Below, in pieces: positions 1-44,521 of a stretch of 44,521 nucleotides of DNA (position 1 is the stretch's first letter; each line of letters opens with the position of its first letter). Under the pieces are notes generated by a model, which made no database searches, was not told the DNA's origin, and was given only the letters and a program-made list of their open reading frames with translations. Made by a program: the position numbers and the translations under genes. Origin of the DNA: a virus; the IMG/VR virus record IMGVR_UViG_3300046660_000166, positions 1-44,521 of that record. One strand, given 5' to 3'.

Positions 1-746
1 TGATCATTCCGCGCGTCAAGCTTCTGCAGGCCGTCTCGGAAGAAATCCAGACTTTCGATGGCCTCAAGGTCGGGCAGTTCTTTCACACGCTGATGGAAGA
101 ATCGATGGGCACCAGCCTGCGGTTCGCACCCATCAGCCTCAAGAAGGAGCTGGTACTCTGGGCACCGCGCGGCGACGACCGTGGCATTCTGGCCCGGTCC
201 AGCGACTGCGTGCGTTGGGATGCGGGGTTTGAAAACCTCGAATTCACCGTCAAGATCAAAGGTGCGGGCGACGTTACCTACAACACGCGGGGCAGCGTCA
301 AGGAATCTAAGCTCGCGGACTTTGGTTCCTCGGTCCCCGGCGACCCTAACAGCCGTCCTGCAGCCAGCCTCACCTACCGCATGATGTTCCTGTTCCTGGA
401 TTTCCTCGATTGGGGTCCGGCTATCGTAATCAACACGCGGTCGTCGATCCGCCCTGCCAAGGGCCTGATCAGCAAGGTCGAACTCCGCCCGCAGGAGCAT
501 TTCGATCAGGTCTTCACGATGGGGACCACCGACGAGAAGGGCGACGAGGGTCCGTACAAGGGCTATTCCTACACGGCAGCCGGATACACCACTGCCGAGG
601 AACATGAGCTGACCAAGGCGACCTACGAAAAGTACGGCTCGCTCGACTGGAAGGCCAACGACGAACTCGACGAGGCCAGCACCGAAAGTGGTGGTTCGAG
701 CCGCTCCAACGTCTCATCCGAAGACGTCAAGAACGCGAAATTCTGA
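1..746 (+). CDS. Conserved phage protein, 3' part of a gene split by the circular junction
   Basis: This is the downstream part of a gene that starts at ATG 44292. Because 44395-44521 equals 1-127, the frame runs through the junction without a stop and gives a protein of 282 residues. The body is a compact alpha/beta-looking domain. The C-terminal 30 residues are rich in Ser, Asp and Glu and end in Phe, which recalls the acidic tails of phage ssDNA-binding proteins. I cannot identify the family with certainty, so a role as ssDNA-binding or replication accessory protein is inference from that tail and from its place between the 43090 gene and the DNA polymerase. No function is claimed from homology. 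Confidence 0.85.
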   Translation, partial: IIPRVKLLQAVSEEIQTFDGLKVGQFFHTLMEESMGTSLRFAPISLKKELVLWAPRGDDRGILARSSDCVRWDAGFENLEFTVKIKGAGDVTYNTRGSVKESKLADFGSSVPGDPNSRPAASLTYRMMFLFLDFLDWGPAIVINTRSSIRPAKGLISKVELRPQEHFDQVFTMGTTDEKGDEGPYKGYSYTAAGYTTAEEHELTKATYEKYGSLDWKANDELDEASTESGGSSRSNVSSEDVKNAKF

Positions 747-899: not shown

Positions 900-2735
900 A
901 TGACAATTGAAACTAGCTTGATCGACCCGGAACTGGCGCTGCAGATCGTTGCCGAGGATAGCAACACCATTGCGTACGACACGGAAACCAACGGCCTCTT
1001 GGTGACGAGCATCATCGTCGGGTATGTGGTCACCAACAACGAATTTTCAATCTATGTGCCGGTTCGGCACGAGGGCGGAGGCAACATTCCGAATGTCGAA
1101 GAATTCGAAGTGGAAATGGCTAAAGCGTTTAAGCAACGATCCCGGCTTGGATTTCGAACGGTCGGCCATAATCTGGGGTTCGATCTGCGCGCTAGCCTTC
1201 GTCATGGCGTGGTGCTCGGATCACCTCTAGAAGACACGATGATCAACGAAGCGCTGATCGACGACACGACGCTCGGCTACGGGCTTGACGACTGCTCCGA
1301 AAGGCGGGGGGTGACCGCCAAGAAGGGCGACGAGCTGTATCGGGCTATCGCGGACCGTTTCGGTGGGCTTGCCGACCGCAAGTCGATGCAGCATTTCTAC
1401 AAGATGCCGGGTGACCACCCGCTTGTTCTCGACTACGCGACGGGCGACGGCGTGTCCACGCTCGAATTGTGGGAAAAGCAGCAGTCGCTGCTCGACCGTC
1501 TCGAAGTGCGGAAGCCATGGAAGCTTGAGTGCGACCTGCTGCCCTACGTCGCGCGGATGCACGCACGCGGTCTGAAGATCGACGCTGGTTACGCCACCAA
1601 AGTGGCTGAAAACATCAAGATCGGCATCGAGGCAGCCAAGCAGAAATTCCCACCGGGCTTCAACTCGATGGCACCCACCCAAGTAGAGGCGCTATACCGA
1701 AAGGCTGGTTACGGTGACAATGATTTCAAGTATACCGACCCGACTGCTAAGAAGCCGAACGGCCAAGTCAGCTTCACAGCCAAGTGGCTGGACGGAAACG
1801 CTATCGGTAAGGATATCATTGCGGTCCGACAACTTGAAAAGGCCCGTGACTCTTTTATTGCCCCTCTCGTTGAAACCCACAACATCGGAGGCCGAGTTTA
1901 CCCAATCCTCAATCAGTCTAAGGGCGACGAGTACGGCGTTGCGGGCGCTCGCTTCTCTTGTTCGCTACCCAATCTTCAGGCGTTCCCCAAGCGGGATCAG
2001 GTGATCGGCGGCATCGTACGCCCGCTTGTCATCCCCGACGACGGGATGCTGATCGAAGAAGCCGACGCTATGCAGCAAGAGCCGCGCTTCTTCACCCATT
2101 TTTCGGAGGATGCTGCTCTTGTGGAGGGGTATACCAATGGGACGCTCGACATCCATCAGCGAGCTTCTGACGTGTTGCATCTTGATCGCGAATACGCTAA
2201 GCGGCTTGGTCTTGGTATGCTTACTATGATGTCGCCAAAGACGCTGGCGATGCACATGGGCTACTCTATCGAACAGGCTAGGACCGATCATTCGTCGTTC
2301 CTCAACGATGCTTTTCCGGCGATCCGCGACTTTCAGCAACTGGCCGTGCGGGTCTACAAGGACCGGGGCTACGTCAAGTCGATCCTTGGGCGTCGCGCAT
2401 GGTGCCGAGACCGCCGCTTTGCCTATCAGGCCGTCTCCCGCATCATCCAAAACTGCGGCGGCGACCACATGAAGACAGTGCTGCTGCGGGCCAACCAGTA
2501 CGAGGACGTGTTCCCCGACGCGCTGCAGAACCTGCTGACTATCCACGACTCCGCCATCTGGCAGCGAGACCCCGGCCACGATCCGCACGAGCTTATTCGG
2601 ATCATGGAAAACGTGCCACATGAGCCGGACTTTTCGTTGATTGTGCCCATTCCCTTCGAGTTGGGGTCGGGCCACCACTGGTCGGAGGCATCCTACGGCC
2701 CTAAGCTGAAGGGCAAGAAGGGCTGGAACATATAA
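900..2735 (+). CDS. dpoZ: Family A DNA polymerase with 3'-5' exonuclease (DpoZ-type)
   Basis: The gene encodes a replicative DNA polymerase of 611 residues. The N-terminal DnaQ-like proofreading domain shows D27-T-E29, N91-LGF-D95 and Y179-x3-D183. The polymerase domain shows motif A as D389-xx-Q-x-E-x-R396, motif B beginning R430-xxx-K434, and motif C as H549-D550-S551. ATG 900 is chosen over the in-frame TTG 843 because a GGAG lies just upstream and the TTG would sit in a stem-loop. The motif B aromatic residue is replaced by Leu438, and the usual HDE of motif C is HDS. Grouping with PurZ, a MazG-like protein and a DatZ-like hydrolase identifies it by context as DpoZ, whose exonuclease is reported to remove A opposite T in favour of 2-aminoadenine. 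That specificity is not proven by the sequence. Confidence 0.92.
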   Translation: MTIETSLIDPELALQIVAEDSNTIAYDTETNGLLVTSIIVGYVVTNNEFSIYVPVRHEGGGNIPNVEEFEVEMAKAFKQRSRLGFRTVGHNLGFDLRASLRHGVVLGSPLEDTMINEALIDDTTLGYGLDDCSERRGVTAKKGDELYRAIADRFGGLADRKSMQHFYKMPGDHPLVLDYATGDGVSTLELWEKQQSLLDRLEVRKPWKLECDLLPYVARMHARGLKIDAGYATKVAENIKIGIEAAKQKFPPGFNSMAPTQVEALYRKAGYGDNDFKYTDPTAKKPNGQVSFTAKWLDGNAIGKDIIAVRQLEKARDSFIAPLVETHNIGGRVYPILNQSKGDEYGVAGARFSCSLPNLQAFPKRDQVIGGIVRPLVIPDDGMLIEEADAMQQEPRFFTHFSEDAALVEGYTNGTLDIHQRASDVLHLDREYAKRLGLGMLTMMSPKTLAMHMGYSIEQARTDHSSFLNDAFPAIRDFQQLAVRVYKDRGYVKSILGRRAWCRDRRFAYQAVSRIIQNCGGDHMKTVLLRANQYEDVFPDALQNLLTIHDSAIWQRDPGHDPHELIRIMENVPHEPDFSLIVPIPFELGSGHHWSEASYGPKLKGKKGWNI

Positions 2736-2748
2736 ACCCGGCGGGTTT
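2734..2748 (+). terminator. Short inverted repeat after the polymerase gene
   Basis: AAACCC-GGC-GGGTTT overlaps the stop codon region of the polymerase gene and is followed by GG instead of a long T run. It could be a weak terminator before the promoter at 2758. Confidence 0.3.
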
Positions 2749-2757
2749 GGACTATGC

Positions 2758-2786
2758 TTGACGCCTGCGCCGAGGCGTGATATAAT
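2758..2786 (+). promoter_or_regulatory. Sigma-70 promoter for the purZ-datZ operon
   Basis: TTGACG at 2758-2763, a 17-base spacer ending TGA (extended -10 TGn), and a perfect TATAAT at 2781-2786. It lies 24 bases upstream of the TTG start at 2810 and could drive the cluster through to the helicase gene. Confidence 0.85.
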
Positions 2787-2809
2787 CGGGATACTAAGGA
2801 GAGCAGAGC

Positions 2810-3022
2810 TTGGGGTACAAACGCAACGAAGACGAGTTCACCTTCGAAGGGTTGATCGAGCACAAGACGCCGAAAGCCTACCTAGTAGAAATGACGCTCG
2901 GCGGGAAATACTGGCTGCCGATATCCCAAGTTCTCCACATCGGGGAGCCAGATATCGACGGGCGGCGCGAGTTCATCGTGTCCGAGTGGTGGTGGGGCGT
3001 CAAGACCCCGGTGGAGGACTAA
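2810..3022 (+). CDS. Small unknown protein, 70 residues
   Basis: First gene of the Z-nucleotide operon. It begins with a TTG codon preceded by AAGGAG about 13 bases upstream, directly after the promoter at 2758-2786. The sequence has alternating charged and aromatic residues, with a W-W-W-G run near the C-terminus, and looks like a small soluble beta-rich domain. It ends immediately before the ATG of the nuclease gene (3023), so translation is probably coupled. I do not recognise the family. Its position suggests a link to replication or nucleotide metabolism, but this is only inferred. Confidence 0.8.
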   Translation: MGYKRNEDEFTFEGLIEHKTPKAYLVEMTLGGKYWLPISQVLHIGEPDIDGRREFIVSEWWWGVKTPVED

Positions 3023-3424
3023 ATGAAGACCAAAATGGCGTTGGAGTCTTGGTTCAAGGGCAACATCGTAATTGATGTCCGAGCCGCTGGCGGCTATGCG
3101 CGTCGCGTCGAAGACCAGTACGGCGTCGGCATCCTCGACCTTATCCTTTCGCTGCCTGAAACGGGGCTGATCCTCGCCGAGGCTAAACGGTTTACGGGGC
3201 GGTTCTTCGAACCATCGCCTCGTCAATACATCGAAATGCTGGATGTAGATGCTGGTGGCGGCAAAGCGCTGCTGATCGGCGTCAAAGACGACGTGTTTTA
3301 CCTAAGTGGAACGGTCCGTGACGACGGCGTTCGGGGCAGGGCGTTCATTGAACGGTGTGCCGTGCAGCAAGAGGGGGAGACGTTCCCCCAACTCCTTCAA
3401 CGATGGTACAAAGGGAAATATTGA
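3023..3424 (+). CDS. VRR-NUC-like PD-(D/E)XK nuclease
   Basis: The 133-residue protein matches the small phage VRR-NUC or Holliday-junction-resolvase-like nucleases. The signature is GVGILD39, then a hydrophobic strand, then E53-A-K55 and Q68 in a helix (PRQYIEML). Asp39, Glu53 and Lys55 are the expected metal-binding and catalytic residues of the PD-(D/E)XK fold. Such proteins usually resolve branched DNA during replication or recombination. It starts on the base after the stop of the previous gene, and its TGA overlaps the next ATG by one base, so it is part of a tightly coupled operon. The exact substrate is unknown. Confidence 0.8.
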   Translation: MKTKMALESWFKGNIVIDVRAAGGYARRVEDQYGVGILDLILSLPETGLILAEAKRFTGRFFEPSPRQYIEMLDVDAGGGKALLIGVKDDVFYLSGTVRDDGVRGRAFIERCAVQQEGETFPQLLQRWYKGKY

Positions 3425-3936
3425 TGTCGAAAGATCAAGACCACCGAAAGGTCGCCACTTACATCCTTGGAACCGCCAACAAGGTTGTCACTACCGAGCG
3501 CGGCGGGCAACACGGCGGCGCAGAAGACAGCTTCCAGATGATCGGCCACTTCTGGTCGGTGTATCTCACCAACACTAACAGCCAGCGAGGTGTTCCGGGG
3601 ATCAACATTACACCGAAGGACGTGGCCCAGATGATGGTGCTGCTCAAGATCGCACGAAATGTCCACGGCGCGCTCAAGGACGACGATTTCGTCGATCAGG
3701 CCGGGTACACGGCTTTGGCCGCCGCGTTGAACGGCATTGAAGTGCCGACGCCGGTTGCACCAATCACTCCGCCCGGTCCCATCGCCTCCCACATCCCTGA
3801 CGCGTCGACGGTATCGCTCGCCAAGAAGTTCGCCCCTCGTCCGGACCCCATTCCGGAGACGAAGTCGGTGGTTGTTCCACCGAACGCTGACATGTCCAAG
3901 GTTCTGGATCAGCTGTCCAAGGAGATCGTCGAGTGA
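3424..3936 (+). CDS. DUF6378-like phage protein
   Basis: The 170-residue protein has an N-terminal helical domain (about residues 30-105) with EDSFQMIGHFWSVYL and DVAQMMVLLKIAR. This pattern matches the DUF6378 phage family, whose function is not established. Residues 110-150 form a Pro-rich linker before a short C-terminal helix. The gene overlaps the nuclease stop by one base and the purZ start by four (GTGA), so it is probably co-translated with purZ. The helical EDxF...DV pattern loosely recalls MazG-like nucleotide hydrolases. A role in nucleotide metabolism is plausible but is my inference. Confidence 0.75.
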   Translation: MSKDQDHRKVATYILGTANKVVTTERGGQHGGAEDSFQMIGHFWSVYLTNTNSQRGVPGINITPKDVAQMMVLLKIARNVHGALKDDDFVDQAGYTALAAALNGIEVPTPVAPITPPGPIASHIPDASTVSLAKKFAPRPDPIPETKSVVVPPNADMSKVLDQLSKEIVE

Positions 3937-4979
3937 AGACGCTTTTCTCAGATTTTGGCGTCCACGCGGTTGTGGACGGTCAGTTCGGCTCCACCGGCAA
4001 GGGCGTCCTTGCCGCGTGGTTGGCGCAGCAAGCCTTCCAGCAGGGCGTATCGTTCGGGGCGGTCGTATCGAACGCCGGTCCGAATAGCGGGCACACGTTC
4101 TACAGCGACAGCGGCGAAAAGCACGTGCTCAAGCAACTCCCCACTTTCGCTGTGGCGTCGGTCGTCAATGGATATGGCAACCCGGTGGTTTACCTGTCGG
4201 CGGGGGCGATCATCGACATGGACATCCTGTTCGCGGAGGCACGACGCTACCCGCAGCTGGAAATCTTCGTTGACCCGCTCGCCGCCGTCATCACCCCGGA
4301 GGACAAGGCGGCGGAGCATTCCGGCACCGTCGCCGCCGTGGCTGGTACACGGTCCGGCACTGGCGCTGCCCTAGCCCGGAAGGTACTGCGGGACCCCAAG
4401 GCAGTAATACAGAACTGGTCGATGGTGGGTGCCCCCTCCAACATCTTCTACGGCGGCGTGCCGCTGTCGTACATCTCCGGGGTCCGGACTTTCTTGGAAG
4501 TCAGTCAGGGCTTTTCGCTGGGCCTCAACTCGGAGTTCTACCCGAAAGTGACGAGCCGAGAATGCACCGTTATGCAAGGCATCAGCGACGCTCGCATCCC
4601 ACCTTGGATGGTTGAGCGCGTCTACGCTTCGATGCGGACCTACCCGATCCGGGTGGGCAACGTCGACGGGTTCGACAGCGGGGGTTGCTATCCCGACCAA
4701 TGGGAGACCACATGGGAGGCCCTCAAGCAAGTGCCGGAACTGACGACGGTGACGCAACGCGTGCGGCGCGTCTTCACGTTCAGCGAAATGCAGGCGCGGC
4801 AGGCCATCGACGCCAACGGGGCGGACTTCGTGTTCATGAACTTCATGAACTACCTCGACACGGTGGGGCAGATGGGCATCATCGAGAAAGTGCGCCGTAT
4901 TAACAGTTCGTCGCTAAAGCCGTTCGGGCTGATCCTCGGCCACGGCGCAGCATCGGAGGATGTAAAACAATGGTTATAG
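3933..4979 (+). CDS. purZ: PurZ, N6-succino-2-amino-2'-deoxyadenylate synthase
   Basis: The protein is an adenylosuccinate synthetase homologue of 348 residues, shorter than the bacterial PurA of about 430. PurZ joins dGMP and aspartate, the first step towards 2-aminoadenine nucleotides (dZTP). The PurA P-loop motif GDEGKG appears as G19-S20-T21-G22-K23-G24, so the catalytic Asp of PurA is replaced by Ser, a known feature of phage PurZ. The NxGHT motif is kept (N51-S-G-H54-T). The GTG start at 3933 overlaps the previous stop by four bases. The next gene starts inside the 3' end of purZ after a strong GGAGG. Host enzymes normally finish the pathway. The family call is strong; the reaction is known from homologues. 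Confidence 0.93.
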   Translation: MKTLFSDFGVHAVVDGQFGSTGKGVLAAWLAQQAFQQGVSFGAVVSNAGPNSGHTFYSDSGEKHVLKQLPTFAVASVVNGYGNPVVYLSAGAIIDMDILFAEARRYPQLEIFVDPLAAVITPEDKAAEHSGTVAAVAGTRSGTGAALARKVLRDPKAVIQNWSMVGAPSNIFYGGVPLSYISGVRTFLEVSQGFSLGLNSEFYPKVTSRECTVMQGISDARIPPWMVERVYASMRTYPIRVGNVDGFDSGGCYPDQWETTWEALKQVPELTTVTQRVRRVFTFSEMQARQAIDANGADFVFMNFMNYLDTVGQMGIIEKVRRINSSSLKPFGLILGHGAASEDVKQWL

Positions 4980-5425
4980 ACAACGGCGACATGGGCTACC
5001 CGACGGCGGAAGATCGGGAGCGGTCTTACAGAAATCATCCGTATTTCAAGGGTGAGGAGGCCCGCGACCCCTCCAATACCTACGAGCGGAAGCCGTGGGT
5101 TATCGGGATGGATTTGGCCTCGCCGGGCGGCGATCACACCGCCTTCTCGTTCGTGGTCCGTCTCGAAGGCAACATGGCTCAATACGGAGCGGATATCCGC
5201 CGCTTCGTCGACGCGATGGTGTTCAAGCTCGAAAAGAACGTCAAGAAGGGGAAGTGGGAAGACCTCCCCATCGAACAGGCGTTCGACCTACTTAAGGCCG
5301 AGGTGGCCGAGCTACAGGCCGAGGTCCACGGCGACCGGAACATGGTGCGGACGATGCTTGAAGCAGCGGATGTCGCCAATTTCGCTCTGATCGTGGCGTC
5401 GATTGTAATGGAGCGGGGGCGATGA
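4970..5425 (+). CDS. mazZ: MazZ-like (MazG fold) nucleotide pyrophosphohydrolase with N-terminal extension
   Basis: The C-terminal part (about residues 80-151) is an all-alpha MazG-like domain. It shows KLEKNVKKGKWE, then E111-xx-E114-xxx-E118 and E131-xx-D134, the expected Mg-binding pattern. In Z-phages the MazZ protein converts dGTP to dGMP, which is the PurZ substrate, so the position directly after purZ supports this role. The 75-residue N-terminus is unusual and contains WVIGMDLASPGG (43-54), a beta-strand and turn not part of the MazG domain. The start at 4970 has GGAGG ten bases upstream. The end overlaps the next gene by four bases. A general dNTP pyrophosphatase remains possible. 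Confidence 0.85.
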   Translation: MVIDNGDMGYPTAEDRERSYRNHPYFKGEEARDPSNTYERKPWVIGMDLASPGGDHTAFSFVVRLEGNMAQYGADIRRFVDAMVFKLEKNVKKGKWEDLPIEQAFDLLKAEVAELQAEVHGDRNMVRTMLEAADVANFALIVASIVMERGR

Positions 5426-5604
5426 TCCAACCCAACCTCAGGGACGAGGCGGATTACTGGAACAACGCCTACAAAGAGTGCTACGGCGCTTACCCCGACC
5501 CTTTGATCGGGGCGGGGGTGGCGATGGCACATGTTGCGGCGGTTCAGTCCGCCGTGATGCGGTATTGGACGCACAAGGCCAAGGAGGCCGCTACCCGTGA
5601 ATAA
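5422..5604 (+). CDS. Small unknown protein between mazZ and datZ, 60 residues
   Basis: The gene starts with ATGA overlap on mazZ and ends eight bases inside the datZ start, so it is embedded in the Z-nucleotide operon. The protein is helical. Its first half is rich in Tyr, Trp and Asn, and the second half ([20 protein letters not shown]) is an amphipathic Ala-rich helix, possibly surface-active or an oligomerisation helix. It is too weakly hydrophobic for a clear membrane segment. I do not recognise it. Its conserved tight spacing suggests that it works with the flanking enzymes, but nothing in the sequence shows how. Confidence 0.75.
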
Positions 5605-6148
5605 AATTTTCAATGAGCTGGACCATCGCCTTTCGGTGGTGAAGAGATGGGGCATCCTCCACACTATCCAGACGCAGTCGGTGGCGGAACACTGCTTCAA
5701 CGTCGAAAGGATGGCGGTGCGGATCGCCAAGGAGTGGTTCGGGTATCAGGCGATGCAGCTCTGGCCGGTCATCAAGTGGGCGCACCATCACGACGATCTT
5801 GAGTCCCTGATCGGGGACCCACCAACCATGGTCAAGCCGTACGTCGATGAAGAGGCGATGGCGGAGGACCACAGGGACCTAGTTCCGTTGCGTTCGCCCA
5901 TCAACAACGAGGTGAAAGGTATCGTCAAGCTGGCCGACCAGTTGGAGGCGTTCCACTTCATCTGCATGGAACTGAAGTTGGGCAATCAGTTCGTTCGTAA
6001 CCACTACGACAATTATTACTCCGAGATACACGCCACGTGTCTCTTGTTCTGGCCTAGTCGCACCGACCTATTCAACAGTGAGGTGAGGCCGGTCATGCAC
6101 GACATGGAGACATATGCCTCCACGCGCCATTCACGGAGGGGTCGCTAA
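5597..6148 (+). CDS. datZ: DatZ-like HD-domain dATP triphosphohydrolase
   Basis: The 183-residue HD-domain protein is about the length of DatZ from cyanophage S-2L. Metal ligands can be placed at H32 (SVAEHCFN), H65-D66 in WAHHHDDLE, and D114 (KLADQLEAF). W18-G-I20 near the N-terminus corresponds by position to residues reported to contact adenine and exclude 2-aminoadenine in S-2L DatZ. DatZ removes dATP so that the polymerase uses dZTP. The GTG start at 5597 has a strong AAGGAGG ten bases upstream. Its stop overlaps the helicase ATG by one base. The alternative is a YfbR-like 5'-nucleotidase. The purZ-mazZ context favours DatZ. Confidence 0.88.
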
Positions 6149-7539
6149 TGTGGGAACCGAAAGGAGCGCAGGTAGAGGCGCTGAAACGAAGCCGCGGTAA
6201 ACGCGGCTTCGGCTATTTTATGGAGCAGGGCCTCGGCAAAACGTCGACGTCATATGGGGATTTTCTGGATCATGCGCTGGATTTCGACCTTACGAGGATG
6301 GTTACGATTGCGCCCAACAGCTTCAAGGGTGGATGGGCCGAAGAAGTCGACAAGTTCGGGTTTCCTATCACTCCTATCGTCTATGAGTCCGGTAACGTGG
6401 ATCATTACCGCAGCCTTTTTCGTCGCGGTTTCCAGACTCGTCCGAACCTCATTGTCAACTACGAGGCCATCCGGCATCAGTCTGCTCGCGACGTTATTCG
6501 CGACTTTCTTGGTGATCGGCGTGGTTATCTTGTTGCTGACGAATCCATTAAGCTCAAGGACTTTTCGTCGGATCAAACAAAGGCTGCGCTGGAAATAGCC
6601 CAGGACTTCGAGTTCACCCGCATCCTTTCGGGGAAGCCGATCAGCCAAGGGCCGCACGACCTGTGGGCGCAGATGCGTTTCATCAAGCAGCTTGAGGGGT
6701 TCCGATACCACCCGTTCAAAAACGCGTTCTGCAAGATGGGCGGGTTCAAGATGAAGCAGGTGATGGGGGCGCAGAACGAAGACATACTGGCCGAGCGTAT
6801 TGACCCGCATGTATTCCGCGCCACTAAGGTGGAGTGGACCGACCTACCACCAAAGCTACCCACCACCCGTGAATACACCCTGACGCCCGACATGAAACGT
6901 ATGTACAAGTCGATGGAGGATGACTTCGTATTGTGGCTCAGCGAAAATGAGCACGTCAGCGTCGACATTGCGATAACCAAGTACATCAAGTTGGCTCAGA
7001 TACAGGCCGGGTTTATCATCGACGACGACGGCAACACCCGGCTGCTGGTCGAGCCGAAGAACAACCCGCGCCTCAATGCACTTGAGGAATATGTGGACGG
7101 GGTCGTCGGCAAAACGATCGTCGTGTACAACCACAAGGTGGTTCGCCCGATGCTCTACGAGCGGTTTGCCAAGCTGAACCCGGTACACATCAGCGGCGGG
7201 ATGACCCCGGAGGAAATATCGGCCAACAAGCGCCGCTTCAACGAGGACCCGACCTGCCGCGTTATATTCATCACCAAGGCGGCAAAGTACGGCCACACGC
7301 TTATCGGCGGTCCAGAGCCGGAGAACCACTGCTCGGACATGGTGTTCTACGAGAACACGTATTCGCTGGACGACCGCAGCCAGCTTGAAGATCGCAATCA
7401 CCGATATGGTCAGATCGGCGAGACTAATTGGTATTGCGATATTGTCGGGACACAGCTGGACCGGAATGCTACGCGCGCGTTGCAACGAAAAGAGTCAGTG
7501 TTCCAAGCGGTATTCCAGCACATCGGCAAACGGAATTGA
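6148..7539 (+). CDS. SNF2/DEAD-like superfamily 2 helicase
   Basis: The 463-residue protein has a Walker A variant M25-EQGLGKT, a DEAD-like box V129-A-D131-E-S, and the two-domain layout of phage SNF2-like helicases. The motif VI region near the C-terminus reads QLEDRNHRYGQ, typical of SNF2 proteins. These phage enzymes are thought to remodel or unwind DNA during replication, recombination or transcription. The gene overlaps datZ by one base and is last in the operon. Its stop codon lies inside the -35 of the next promoter (7536-7564). The exact function is not predictable from sequence. Confidence 0.9.
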   Translation: MWEPKGAQVEALKRSRGKRGFGYFMEQGLGKTSTSYGDFLDHALDFDLTRMVTIAPNSFKGGWAEEVDKFGFPITPIVYESGNVDHYRSLFRRGFQTRPNLIVNYEAIRHQSARDVIRDFLGDRRGYLVADESIKLKDFSSDQTKAALEIAQDFEFTRILSGKPISQGPHDLWAQMRFIKQLEGFRYHPFKNAFCKMGGFKMKQVMGAQNEDILAERIDPHVFRATKVEWTDLPPKLPTTREYTLTPDMKRMYKSMEDDFVLWLSENEHVSVDIAITKYIKLAQIQAGFIIDDDGNTRLLVEPKNNPRLNALEEYVDGVVGKTIVVYNHKVVRPMLYERFAKLNPVHISGGMTPEEISANKRRFNEDPTCRVIFITKAAKYGHTLIGGPEPENHCSDMVFYENTYSLDDRSQLEDRNHRYGQIGETNWYCDIVGTQLDRNATRALQRKESVFQAVFQHIGKRN

Positions 7540-39448: not shown

Positions 39449-39491
39449 CACCGAAAGGAATCAGGTCCGGCCAGACCCCTTTCGGTGTTTT
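39449..39491 (+). promoter_or_regulatory. Terminator-like attenuator in the primase leader
   Basis: CACCGAAAGG and CCTTTCGGTG form a 10-bp stem. After a 5-base bulge, GGTC and GACC form an inner 4-bp stem with loop CGGCCA. TTTT follows (39488-39491). It lies about 20 bases after the expected transcription start and 29 before the ATG. The stem arms carry the CCGAAAG motif in both orientations. Confidence 0.6.
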
Positions 39492-39519
39492 GCGGGGGAG
39501 GACAGCAACGAGGGCACCA

Positions 39520-42048
39520 ATGTTTGAGACTATAATGGGCGGATTTGACATCCGCAACGAAGACAAACCATTCATCGCTTCGCAGCGCGCCATCACCAAG
39601 CAGATAAACGAAAAGTTCATCCCGGTTGGCGCCGTCTACCTCAAGATGTCGGGCAAGATGCCCATCGACGAAGAGTGGGCGAAATCCGCATACAAGGATA
39701 CGAACCTTCAGGATTGGATCGATGACGAATCTCGCAGCTTCCACAATGTTGGTTTCAATCTGCAGCAGGGATGGGTCGACTTTGATATCGACGCTGGTGA
39801 CCCTGAGTTCAACCGTTGCGTCATCGCTGCCATGGAGCACCTTGGGCTGGATACTCGGTTTCGTTTTGGGCGTCGCTCTGCTGGAATTCCTACTCATGTA
39901 CTTATTCAGCTTGGTGAGGAAGAAGCCTCCAACTTCGAGCAGCTATCCCGCTTCGCCCCCAAAGAGTTCCGAATTGACGGAGACCGATACCACGTCGAAA
40001 TCCGCAGCTACCCCACCAACACCGACAGCAAAAATCTCTATCGATCCGCCAAGCAAACCGTAATGCCGGGGTCGATCTACTCCCACAAGAGTAAGGCCGA
40101 CGAGTACGACATTTCCGTGTGGTGGGACAGCGAAAACAAGCCCGCTGACCGCATTCAGCGCATCGCCTCGACAACGCCTCGCCGCGCGTCGTTCAACGAC
40201 CTAGTCCGCGCCATCGCCTTTGCAACATTCCTATATGTGGTCAAGGATAAGTGGGTCGAAGGCTCGCGCCAGTCGACAGCGACGAAAGTGGCAGGCTGGC
40301 TCGCCCGCGTCGTAGCGGATTCCCAAGCGATGAACAACCACGAAGTCCTTTCGGCGGATGTGTATTGCCCGGTCGACGACGATAGTATCGTTGAGAGCAT
40401 GATTCACTTCGTGTGCGGATACATGGGGGACGACGAACCCCACATGAGAATAAGGACGTATTACGATGCCCAAGGAAAGCTCGCCCGCAACCCCGACGCC
40501 AAAATCCCCGGATGGCCATCCATCGAGCAGCTTTTTGGCGGAGAGCGGGTTATGGCTCTGCGTGCCGTCTTCACCCCCGGCAGCGACGTGTCAATTCTCT
40601 CGGCTATGGCTGAACGATATATCTACGATGAAACCGATAACCTATACATCGACCGAAGACGGCATGTGGGGAACGGAAGATTTGCTCACGAAAATAACGA
40701 ACTCTATACTCGGCACAAAGGCGACGTCGTCCGCATCGGAGGCAAGCCGAAAGAAGCTTTCAAGGTTTATGAGTCGTCTGACATGCGGAAGCGCGTTGAT
40801 CGCCGTGACATGTTCCCCGAACTCGGACCCGGAGGTATTTATCGAGTTGATAACTACGGAAATGTACTTGAGGACGATGACGAAGACGTTTCTGCCTCGG
40901 CCATCTTCAACACGTGGCGCGGCTGGCCGATCCCGCCGACGGACCACGTCAACGAAGAGTTGATGGCGGAGTGCATCTCCAAGCTGGACCAACTATTCGC
41001 CTACCTGACCCGCGACAACGCCAACCAGATCAAGTGGGCCAAGGACAACATCGCCTGGATATTCCAGAACCCGGCGCGCAAGCAGCAGATCGCGTGGGTC
41101 TGCGTCGGCGGTCAGGGCGTCGGCAAATCTTTCTTCGGCAACGTGTTCATGAAGGCGATGATGGGCCGACTGTGGGGTTCCGCTTCGCCGAAAGTGATGG
41201 AGGGCAACTTTTCGGTCGAGCCTTTCGTTGACAAGATGTTTGTATTCATCGACGAGGCCAAGTTCAGCGGCGACGCCAGCACCGACGAAGTAAAGAAGAT
41301 CATCCGCAACGTGGACATCGGCGGCTCGGAGAAATTCCAATCAGCCCGCGACTACCGGATATACAGCCGCGTCATGTTCGCATCCAACCGGTTTGATGTC
41401 AACGTCGGCCAGTCGGGTGTCGTCGACCGCGCGCTGTTCTACACCAGAGCCTATGACAAGGACCACCTGCACAAGTCGGAGCTAGAGTTCCGGTCATGGG
41501 CCGAAGGGCTCAAGCCGTGGTTCGTCGAGTACGCGGATTTCATGGAGCGCCGCGACGTGAAAGAGCACTATATGCGATATTTCATGGAATTGCCGGTATC
41601 TAAGCAGGACGTCGAAAGTATAAAGTATTCGTCATCCTCCGACGCGCTGATCGTCGAGGCCAACATGAGCTGGTCGCGCCGCATCGCCAAGGCCATCATC
41701 GAAGAGGGCCGCATCCACGACGATCTGGCGCTTGAGTACCCGTTCACACAGGCCGATCTCAACCGGCGTGTGGTCGAGCAGACCAAGGAGATGGGCCTCC
41801 GCGCTGTTCAGGGGGGACGCGTCCTGCAAGAGTGGGACGACGCAGGGCTGGTTGAGCGCTACAAGGAAGGTCCCAAGATATACTTGCGCTTCACACACAA
41901 GCACGCCACCAGCGTCGAAATGTTCGAAAAGGCTACGGGCCTTACATTGCATCCGCCTTACGAGTTCACGGAAAACGACGTGGGGCTTAACACTACAACC
42001 ACCAGAGACCGCGCTCCGTGGCGCGGCGGCAAGGAGTACAAATTCTAA
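39520..42048 (+). CDS. Primase-helicase (Prim-Pol-like plus D5-type SF3 helicase)
   Basis: The 842-residue protein has an N-terminal Prim-Pol-like domain with D87-F-D89-I-D91, and a later PT4Q-like region. The C-terminal D5-type helicase domain (DUF5906 pattern) has Walker A V529-GGQGVGKS537, Walker B F-I-D578-E579 and a sensor-like FASNRF. It should prime and unwind DNA at phage replication forks. ATG 39520 is chosen for its CGAGGG RBS and position after the attenuator. The stop shares one base with the next ATG. It is the only replicative helicase-primase recognised. Confidence 0.88.
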   Translation: MFETIMGGFDIRNEDKPFIASQRAITKQINEKFIPVGAVYLKMSGKMPIDEEWAKSAYKDTNLQDWIDDESRSFHNVGFNLQQGWVDFDIDAGDPEFNRCVIAAMEHLGLDTRFRFGRRSAGIPTHVLIQLGEEEASNFEQLSRFAPKEFRIDGDRYHVEIRSYPTNTDSKNLYRSAKQTVMPGSIYSHKSKADEYDISVWWDSENKPADRIQRIASTTPRRASFNDLVRAIAFATFLYVVKDKWVEGSRQSTATKVAGWLARVVADSQAMNNHEVLSADVYCPVDDDSIVESMIHFVCGYMGDDEPHMRIRTYYDAQGKLARNPDAKIPGWPSIEQLFGGERVMALRAVFTPGSDVSILSAMAERYIYDETDNLYIDRRRHVGNGRFAHENNELYTRHKGDVVRIGGKPKEAFKVYESSDMRKRVDRRDMFPELGPGGIYRVDNYGNVLEDDDEDVSASAIFNTWRGWPIPPTDHVNEELMAECISKLDQLFAYLTRDNANQIKWAKDNIAWIFQNPARKQQIAWVCVGGQGVGKSFFGNVFMKAMMGRLWGSASPKVMEGNFSVEPFVDKMFVFIDEAKFSGDASTDEVKKIIRNVDIGGSEKFQSARDYRIYSRVMFASNRFDVNVGQSGVVDRALFYTRAYDKDHLHKSELEFRSWAEGLKPWFVEYADFMERRDVKEHYMRYFMELPVSKQDVESIKYSSSSDALIVEANMSWSRRIAKAIIEEGRIHDDLALEYPFTQADLNRRVVEQTKEMGLRAVQGGRVLQEWDDAGLVERYKEGPKIYLRFTHKHATSVEMFEKATGLTLHPPYEFTENDVGLNTTTTRDRAPWRGGKEYKF

Positions 42049-44332: not shown

Positions 44333-44521
44333 CCTCCCGGCGCATCTGCAGGGCGGCAAGAAATCCTCCTTCGGTAACATCGACAGTACCGATCTGATCA
44401 TTCCGCGCGTCAAGCTTCTGCAGGCCGTCTCGGAAGAAATCCAGACTTTCGATGGCCTCAAGGTCGGGCAGTTCTTTCACACGCTGATGGAAGAATCGAT
44501 GGGCACCAGCCTGCGGTTCGC
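44292..44521 (+). CDS. Conserved phage protein, 5' part of the junction-spanning gene
   Basis: ATG 44292 opens a frame that runs to the end of the window and continues at position 128 in frame to the stop at 746. The complete product has 282 residues. The N-terminus is MADTNAVAKINQSDLPAHL, then FGNIDSTDLIIPRVKLLQAV, a helix and strand order that recurs in a phage family encoded beside replication genes. AAGTAA lies before the ATG, so the RBS is weak, and translation may be coupled to the overlapping 44129 gene. Confidence 0.85.
   Translation, partial: MADTNAVAKINQSDLPAHLQGGKKSSFGNIDSTDLIIPRVKLLQAVSEEIQTFDGLKVGQFFHTLMEESMGTSLRF
44395..44521. repeat. Terminal 127-base copy of the window start
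   Basis: 44395-44521 equals 1-127 without a mismatch. The length is that of the largest k-mer used by common assemblers, which points to a circular assembly and not to a biological terminal repeat. The unique length is 44,394 bp. Confidence 0.95.

Follow-up and report, generated by a model that had tools for sequence, protein, structure and literature searches.

Which polymerase copies the DNA of a phage that appears to replace adenine by 2-aminoadenine (Z)? The question is raised by IMGVR_UViG_3300046660_000166, analysed here as a window of 44,521 nt that is the entire IMG/VR record, in which a family-A DNA polymerase (PolA) gene is followed by genes for PurZ, a MazG-like protein (MazZ) and an HD-type protein (DatZ). 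A first-pass annotation had read the four as a full Z-genome set of DpoZ, PurZ, MazZ and DatZ; the open reading frame list bears out the four open genes, their plus-strand location, order and coordinates (Table 1), and, because three of the products keep the residues that define PurZ, MazZ-2 and DatZ, the genome most likely makes Z-DNA, with a probability of roughly 0.85. The name DpoZ did not hold: PolA scores 249 bits against the DpoZ family NF038380, for which the curated cut-off is 500, and belongs to another lineage, here called OH-like after Ochrobactrum phage vB_OspP_OH (OH). The novelty of the locus is this uncharacterised polymerase lineage, which has a differing residue at the position changed in both Z-selective clades. 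It is tentatively proposed, at somewhat less than even odds, that Z-selective family-A replication arose a third time, in OH-like polymerases by a change from Tyr to Thr or Ser at the gate position (Klenow 766) and in the phiVC8-like and Wayne-like clades by a change to Phe; the gate becomes Asn upon PurZ loss, so that this position would mark, and may help to set, the choice of a virus between A and Z.

The predicted Z pathway

The PurZ motif DGQFGSTGKG carries Ser in place of the catalytic Asp13 of PurA, as first annotated and now confirmed by alignment, with Ser in this column in 110 of 110 aligned PurZ-like sequences and Asp in Escherichia coli PurA. The best match among solved structures is phiVC8 PurZ (PDB 6fko, E=1.5e-51), followed by S-2L PurZ, and PHROG 1211 is matched at 1.8e-60. 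In a tree with E. coli PurA as the sole outgroup, PurZ falls beside its OH counterpart, within an OH-like clade of 31 rows (support 100/96) that is separate from the phiVC8/SH-Ab/S-2L group and from Wayne PurZ0, and is not placed with PurA, the grouping named in the first-pass annotation as contrary to its prediction.

A chromosomal PurZ-like gene with the PurZ Ser was also found in two small-genome alphaproteobacterial metagenome-assembled genomes (MAGs) of one order in GTDB, UBA6503 (L170:7965-9008) and OFTM141 (L171:8001-9035), where it stands in the shared order glpD-glpK-cmk-purZ-rdgB/HAM1-rpsA-sppA and is the sole adenylosuccinate-synthetase-family gene found per genome. Both sequences nest among the phage PurZ proteins, where IMG/VR contig L190 is their sister, and it looks as if a phage PurZ has taken over from PurA.

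Alignment of DatZ with the S-2L enzyme shows R19, W20, I22, Q29, H34, H66, D67, G74, K81, K116 and D119 to be kept, the HD metal ligands H34, H66, D67 and D119 thus all being present; the sole changed residue among those contacting metal, phosphate or base is P79, replaced by Met. Of the kept residues, I22 keeps out the 2-amino group and W20 the ribose (PMC8065100). The DatZ entry 6zpa of the PDB is matched at 3.4e-4. A DatZ-like HD protein was also observed in podovirus ctfPj964 (MW202557; L033:5962-6522), with genes for a deoxyguanosine kinase and a pyrimidine hydroxymethylase-like protein as neighbours; this stretch has no PurZ, and the phage is perhaps another base-modifying one.

By phmmer, the MazG-like protein matches phiVC8 p26 (7.7e-5) and gp22 of Alteromonas phage ZP6 (1.6e-6), both MazZ-2; of the functions annotated as those of S-2L or phiVC8-type phages, this one is therefore of the phiVC8/ZP6 kind, not the S-2L kind. 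Its acids E111, E114, E131 and D134, the equivalents of E35, E38, E50 and D53 in S-2L MazZ, are invariant in 25 aligned sequences. The AF2 model (pLDDT 80) lies nearest to MazG-like proteins (PDB 2p06, probability 1.00), the family profile matches the same entry at 4e-5, and the HisE-type (PRA-PH) Pfam family is matched by 15 of 24 relatives, which together argue with moderate strength for a MazG/HisE helical fold. Homology is restricted to the last ~85-100 residues and high model confidence is likewise C-terminal only, so translation may in fact begin at an internal ATG (5174).

In the pathway that the three proteins suggest, MazZ would turn dGTP into dGMP, PurZ would make dSMP from dGMP, aspartate and ATP, host PurB and kinases would carry dSMP on to dZTP, and DatZ would destroy dATP by hydrolysis; PolA and a primase-polymerase (PrimPol), the latter possibly a second Z-incorporating polymerase, would copy the genome, placing Z opposite T. 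The helix-O gate, Tyr766 in Klenow, Thr here, Ser in OH and Phe in neither, is the proposed adaptation to Z.

Relation to known Z phages

The gene set itself is already known and is ordinary for this phage group. The genes datZ, mazZ and purZ were described together in ten phages in 2021, in a study that names the MazZ-2 of OH, treats OH as a Z-cluster phage and finds PolA in every Z phage except S-2L (PMC8342488); the occurrence of the whole set in an alphaproteobacterial podovirus, singled out as notable by the first-pass annotation, is accordingly not new. With OH (NC_070933, Wolominvirus) the window shares the order PolA, VRR-NUC, DUF6378, PurZ, MazZ, (orf), DatZ, helicase, as well as PrimPol, and the genomes are collinear after rotation of ours. 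Identities are 63% for TerL, 79% for the capsid protein, 60% for PrimPol (to OH gp22, over 841 aa), 58% for PolA (57.7%), 65% for PurZ, 52% for the helicase, 52% for MazZ and 51-53% for DatZ. OH, an isolated phage whose host is known (Ochrobactrum sp. POC9), differs in its gate residue (Ser, here Thr), in a small gene, gp34, between MazZ and DatZ, and in length (41.2 kb, here 44.5 kb).

More distant systems share fewer features. In the podoviruses phiVC8 and ZP6, PurZ, MazZ-2, DatZ and PolA also lie close together, whereas their PolA belongs to the phiVC8-like DpoZ clade with Phe459, Gly548 and insertions 2 and 3, their PurZ is ~31-36% identical to ours, and a DNA primase gene stands between polymerase and PurZ. 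S-2L has the order purZ-mazZ-datZ, PrimPol and a VRR-NUC gene, but is without PolA, has MazZ-1 instead of MazZ-2, and is of another virion type. Arthrobacter phage Wayne (PurZ0/DpoZ-1) resembles the window in a PurA homologue with Ser adjoining PolA, and differs in the PurZ0 branch, in DutZ/DmtZ instead of DatZ/MazZ, and in Phe at the gate.

An OH-like polymerase lineage

The basis on which polymerases choose Z over A is unsolved, and the paper on the phiVC8 DpoZ structure gives no single determinant. The signatures described for phiVC8-like DpoZ are Leu455, Phe459, Gly548 and three insertions, of which the Wayne-like clade shares just one, Phe459 in place of the steric-gate Tyr (PMC8599892). 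The best PDB match of PolA is phiVC8 DpoZ (7pbk, E=8.5e-42), and Leu455 (Leu438), the motif C Ser583 (Ser551) and a stretch resembling insertion 1 are retained; Phe459 is replaced by Thr442 and Gly548 by Ser513, and insertions 2 and 3 are absent. PolA departs from phiVC8-like DpoZ in tree placement as well as in score and residues, lying in a large OH-like lineage (39 tree rows, 100/100) outside that clade. In a 2026 account, PolAs fall into just two groups: DpoZ-1, paired with PurZ0, and DpoZ-2, paired with PurZ (PMC12884076).

The OH-like lineage is without most DpoZ signatures yet linked to PurZ, and its PurZ-less close relatives have another gate residue; because PurZ-linked and PurZ-less relatives differ at the gate, the lineage constitutes a natural experiment with ready enzyme pairs. 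An effect of the gate on base choice is plausible, since in Klenow Tyr766 and Glu710 form a pair within the pocket that receives the nascent base pair, where changes alter fidelity (PMC4882331, PMC3121766).

Gate residue and PurZ linkage

A search by polymerase only, with PurZ unused, returned 80 loci, 59 of them with at least 2.5 kb downstream, and PurZ is present in 54 of these 59. One of the five PurZ-less loci is a short contig end; in the other four (L090, L101, L102 and L106), as in L174, L186 and L191, no PurZ was found in searches of the whole records, which rules out a PurZ hidden elsewhere in these seven. The gate is Ser in OH and L054 and Thr in nearly all other PurZ-positive members of the lineage. 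In L090, L101, L102 and L174 the small genes are followed by the helicase with no purZ block in between, and the gate is Asn, the tree placing two separate PurZ losses (L090; L101/L102/L174) inside the Thr clade, both with Asn; the early-branching members without PurZ (L106, L186 and L191) have Tyr.

Among all distinct PolAs with known PurZ state, whose counts are not independent, those with PurZ have Thr (75), Ser (2), Phe (18), Tyr (4) or Asn (1) and those without it Tyr (28), Asn (7) or Phe (1), so that Thr, Ser or Phe occupies the gate in 95 of 100 PurZ-positive and Tyr or Asn in 35 of 36 PurZ-negative enzymes. On an 80-row tree with seven changes of PurZ state, six independent pairs lie on well-supported branches, and the gate tracks PurZ in 4.9 of the six on average and opposes it in 0; the association of gate residue and PurZ is suggestive.

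Three further cases were noted at this position. Loci L223, L236, L237, L243 and L245 form a separate, distant phage PolA family with Asn at the Tyr766 position and without PurZ. L240, a 27-kb contig without PurZ that has Phe at the gate, is either a lone PurZ-negative Phe case or has its purZ off the contig. In L172, a contig of a Deltaproteobacteria MAG whose genome has a normal PurA elsewhere, PurZ adjoins a very divergent PolA with Thr at the gate; the contig is probably from a phage and possibly a further independent gate case.

Competing explanations

Several observations weigh against the interpretation given here. The curated cut-offs are unmet by both the polymerase (NF038380) and PurZ, which scores 230 bits (E 4e-68) against NF038379, its best match of all families, where 300 bits are set; that family was probably built on closer relatives of the known Z phages. 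The fold match of MazZ is weak by E-value (0.17), and no account was found of Z in OH or any other member of its lineage. For the gate, the sign test gives a median p of 0.0625 with only six independent pairs, and Tyr in four PolAs and Asn in one are the PurZ-positive exceptions; of the rows concerned, L169/L259, L188, L189 and L190 fall in one sister clade, and L224 is a further, distant Tyr case.

A first alternative, which we hold to be possible at about the same sub-even odds as a third origin, is that the phage makes Z-DNA with a polymerase indifferent to Z and A, selectivity coming from the nucleotide pool through DatZ, MazZ and PurZ in the manner of S-2L, which has a PrimPol, and that Thr at the gate is no more than an idiosyncrasy of the lineage. 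Neither S-2L PrimPol nor E. coli Klenow distinguishes A from Z (PMC8342488, PMC8065100), the phage here also encodes a PrimPol, and the gate comparison rests on the same few pairs. Pool purging by DatZ is, however, not always available: between PurZ and the helicase, MazZ and DatZ occur together in 29 distinct relatives, MazZ without DatZ in 38, and DatZ without MazZ in 3. These absences refer to that interval, a distant copy elsewhere being possible, and are real within it, since loci that lack a gene have a shorter gap. DatZ or MazZ is thus dispensable in many relatives, many managing without DatZ and few without MazZ, whereas PurZ nearly always adjoins the OH-like polymerase, and the gate changes with PurZ, including the two parallel Thr-to-Asn changes upon its loss. 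Two MazZ sequence types occur among the relatives, KGxWE...EAADVANF and KDTPT...ELMDQANF; the second is common in DatZ-less genomes and is suspected, by analogy with the SH-Ab 15497 enzyme, which removes dATP (PMC8342488), to remove dATP also.

A second alternative, judged slightly less likely than the first, derives the OH-like enzymes from a single origin with phiVC8-like DpoZ, as divergent members in which Thr or Ser later replaced Phe. A 60-row tree unites the two clades as sisters (96/86), a result that itself counts against separate origins, as does the approximately unbiased (AU) test, in which a joint clade costs 10.8 log-likelihood units and is not rejected (p-AU 0.062, above 0.05); the motif C Ser (VC8 S583) and insertion 1 are common to both, and PMC12884076 has a single PurZ-linked DpoZ-2 group. 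The better-sampled 80-row tree instead joins the phiVC8-like clade to PurZ-less PolAs (100/96), with the OH-like lineage apart (100/100); insertions 2 and 3 and Gly548 are absent from OH-like PolA, and its early-branching PurZ-less members have Tyr, not Phe. A third, separate origin of the OH-like polymerases is favoured on these grounds.

It is improbable that PurZ and the genes around it function in routine purine salvage (synthesis of adenylosuccinate and recycling of nucleotides) in a phage with a normal adenine genome, as the OH genes were interpreted in 2020 (PMC7139368), given the Ser for the catalytic Asp of PurA, the placement in the PurZ tree, the DatZ residues that spare 2-amino purines, and the clustering with a polymerase and MazZ, which proven Z phages also show.

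Genome, host and neighbouring genes

The ordered block is found again in dozens of IMG/VR contigs, which excludes its chance assembly. An exact direct repeat at both ends shows the record to be a closed, complete genome; 127 is also a frequent assembly word length, which would be compatible with a circular assembly graph.

Table 1. Predicted features of the 44,521-nt window
Feature	Positions	Strand	Basis
Terminal direct repeat	1..127, exact copy 44395-44521		127 bp
Family-A DNA polymerase with 3'-5' exonuclease domain, 611 aa, OH-like lineage	900..2735	+	Pfam DNA_pol_A 1e-32
Codon ACT, Thr442, helix-O steric-gate position	2223..2225	+	Alignment: E. coli Pol I Tyr766, phiVC8 DpoZ Phe459
VRR-NUC-like endonuclease, 133 aa	3023..3424	+	PHROG 93 endonuclease 1.8e-6
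DUF6378 protein	3424..3936	+	PF19905 5.5e-26
PurZ, putative 2-aminoadenylosuccinate synthetase, 348 aa, GTG start	3933..4979	+	PHROG 1211, PDB 6fko, tree
MazZ-2-like MazG/HisE-type putative dNTP pyrophosphohydrolase	4970..5425	+	phmmer, acids, AF2 model
DatZ, putative HD-type dATP triphosphohydrolase, 183 aa, GTG start	5597..6148	+	PHROG 7076 dATPase 8.4e-16
SNF2-type DNA helicase, end of block	6148..7539	+	PF00176 6.7e-10; PHROG 62 2.8e-88
Primase-polymerase/helicase, OH gp22 PrimPol homologue	39490..42048	+	DUF5906; PHROG 1156 DNA primase

The genome is Wolominvirus-like and podovirus-like, OH being a podovirus by electron microscopy (PMC7139368, where gp22 is also described as a PrimPol). 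The portal protein is SU10-like (Pfam, 542 bits) with relatives in phages of Ochrobactrum, Sinorhizobium, Sulfitobacter and Pelagibacter, from which an alphaproteobacterial host is likely; the annotation as a podovirus with such a probable host is upheld. Sinorhizobium phage phiM5 was rejected as an isolated PurZ-less control, being related in structural genes only and having a PolA of another kind, with Tyr.

Two small genes, for the DUF6378 protein and the VRR-NUC-like nuclease, lie between PolA and PurZ. Both PHROGs and the OH record label DUF6378 'phosphofructokinase', a name that nothing in this analysis supports. The idea that it is a second MazG-like enzyme standing in for missing MazZ found no support: its predicted 4-helix model has no fold match (S-2L MazZ only at E=5.2), no PDB sequence match was found, profile comparison with MazZ gives E=0.13, and the gene is retained in PurZ-less L090. 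Its motif reads HGxxExSFxMI...DVAxMMxLLKxAR...DxxGYxAL. The VRR-NUC-like gene is present in nearly all related loci and is co-conserved in the OH-like lineage.

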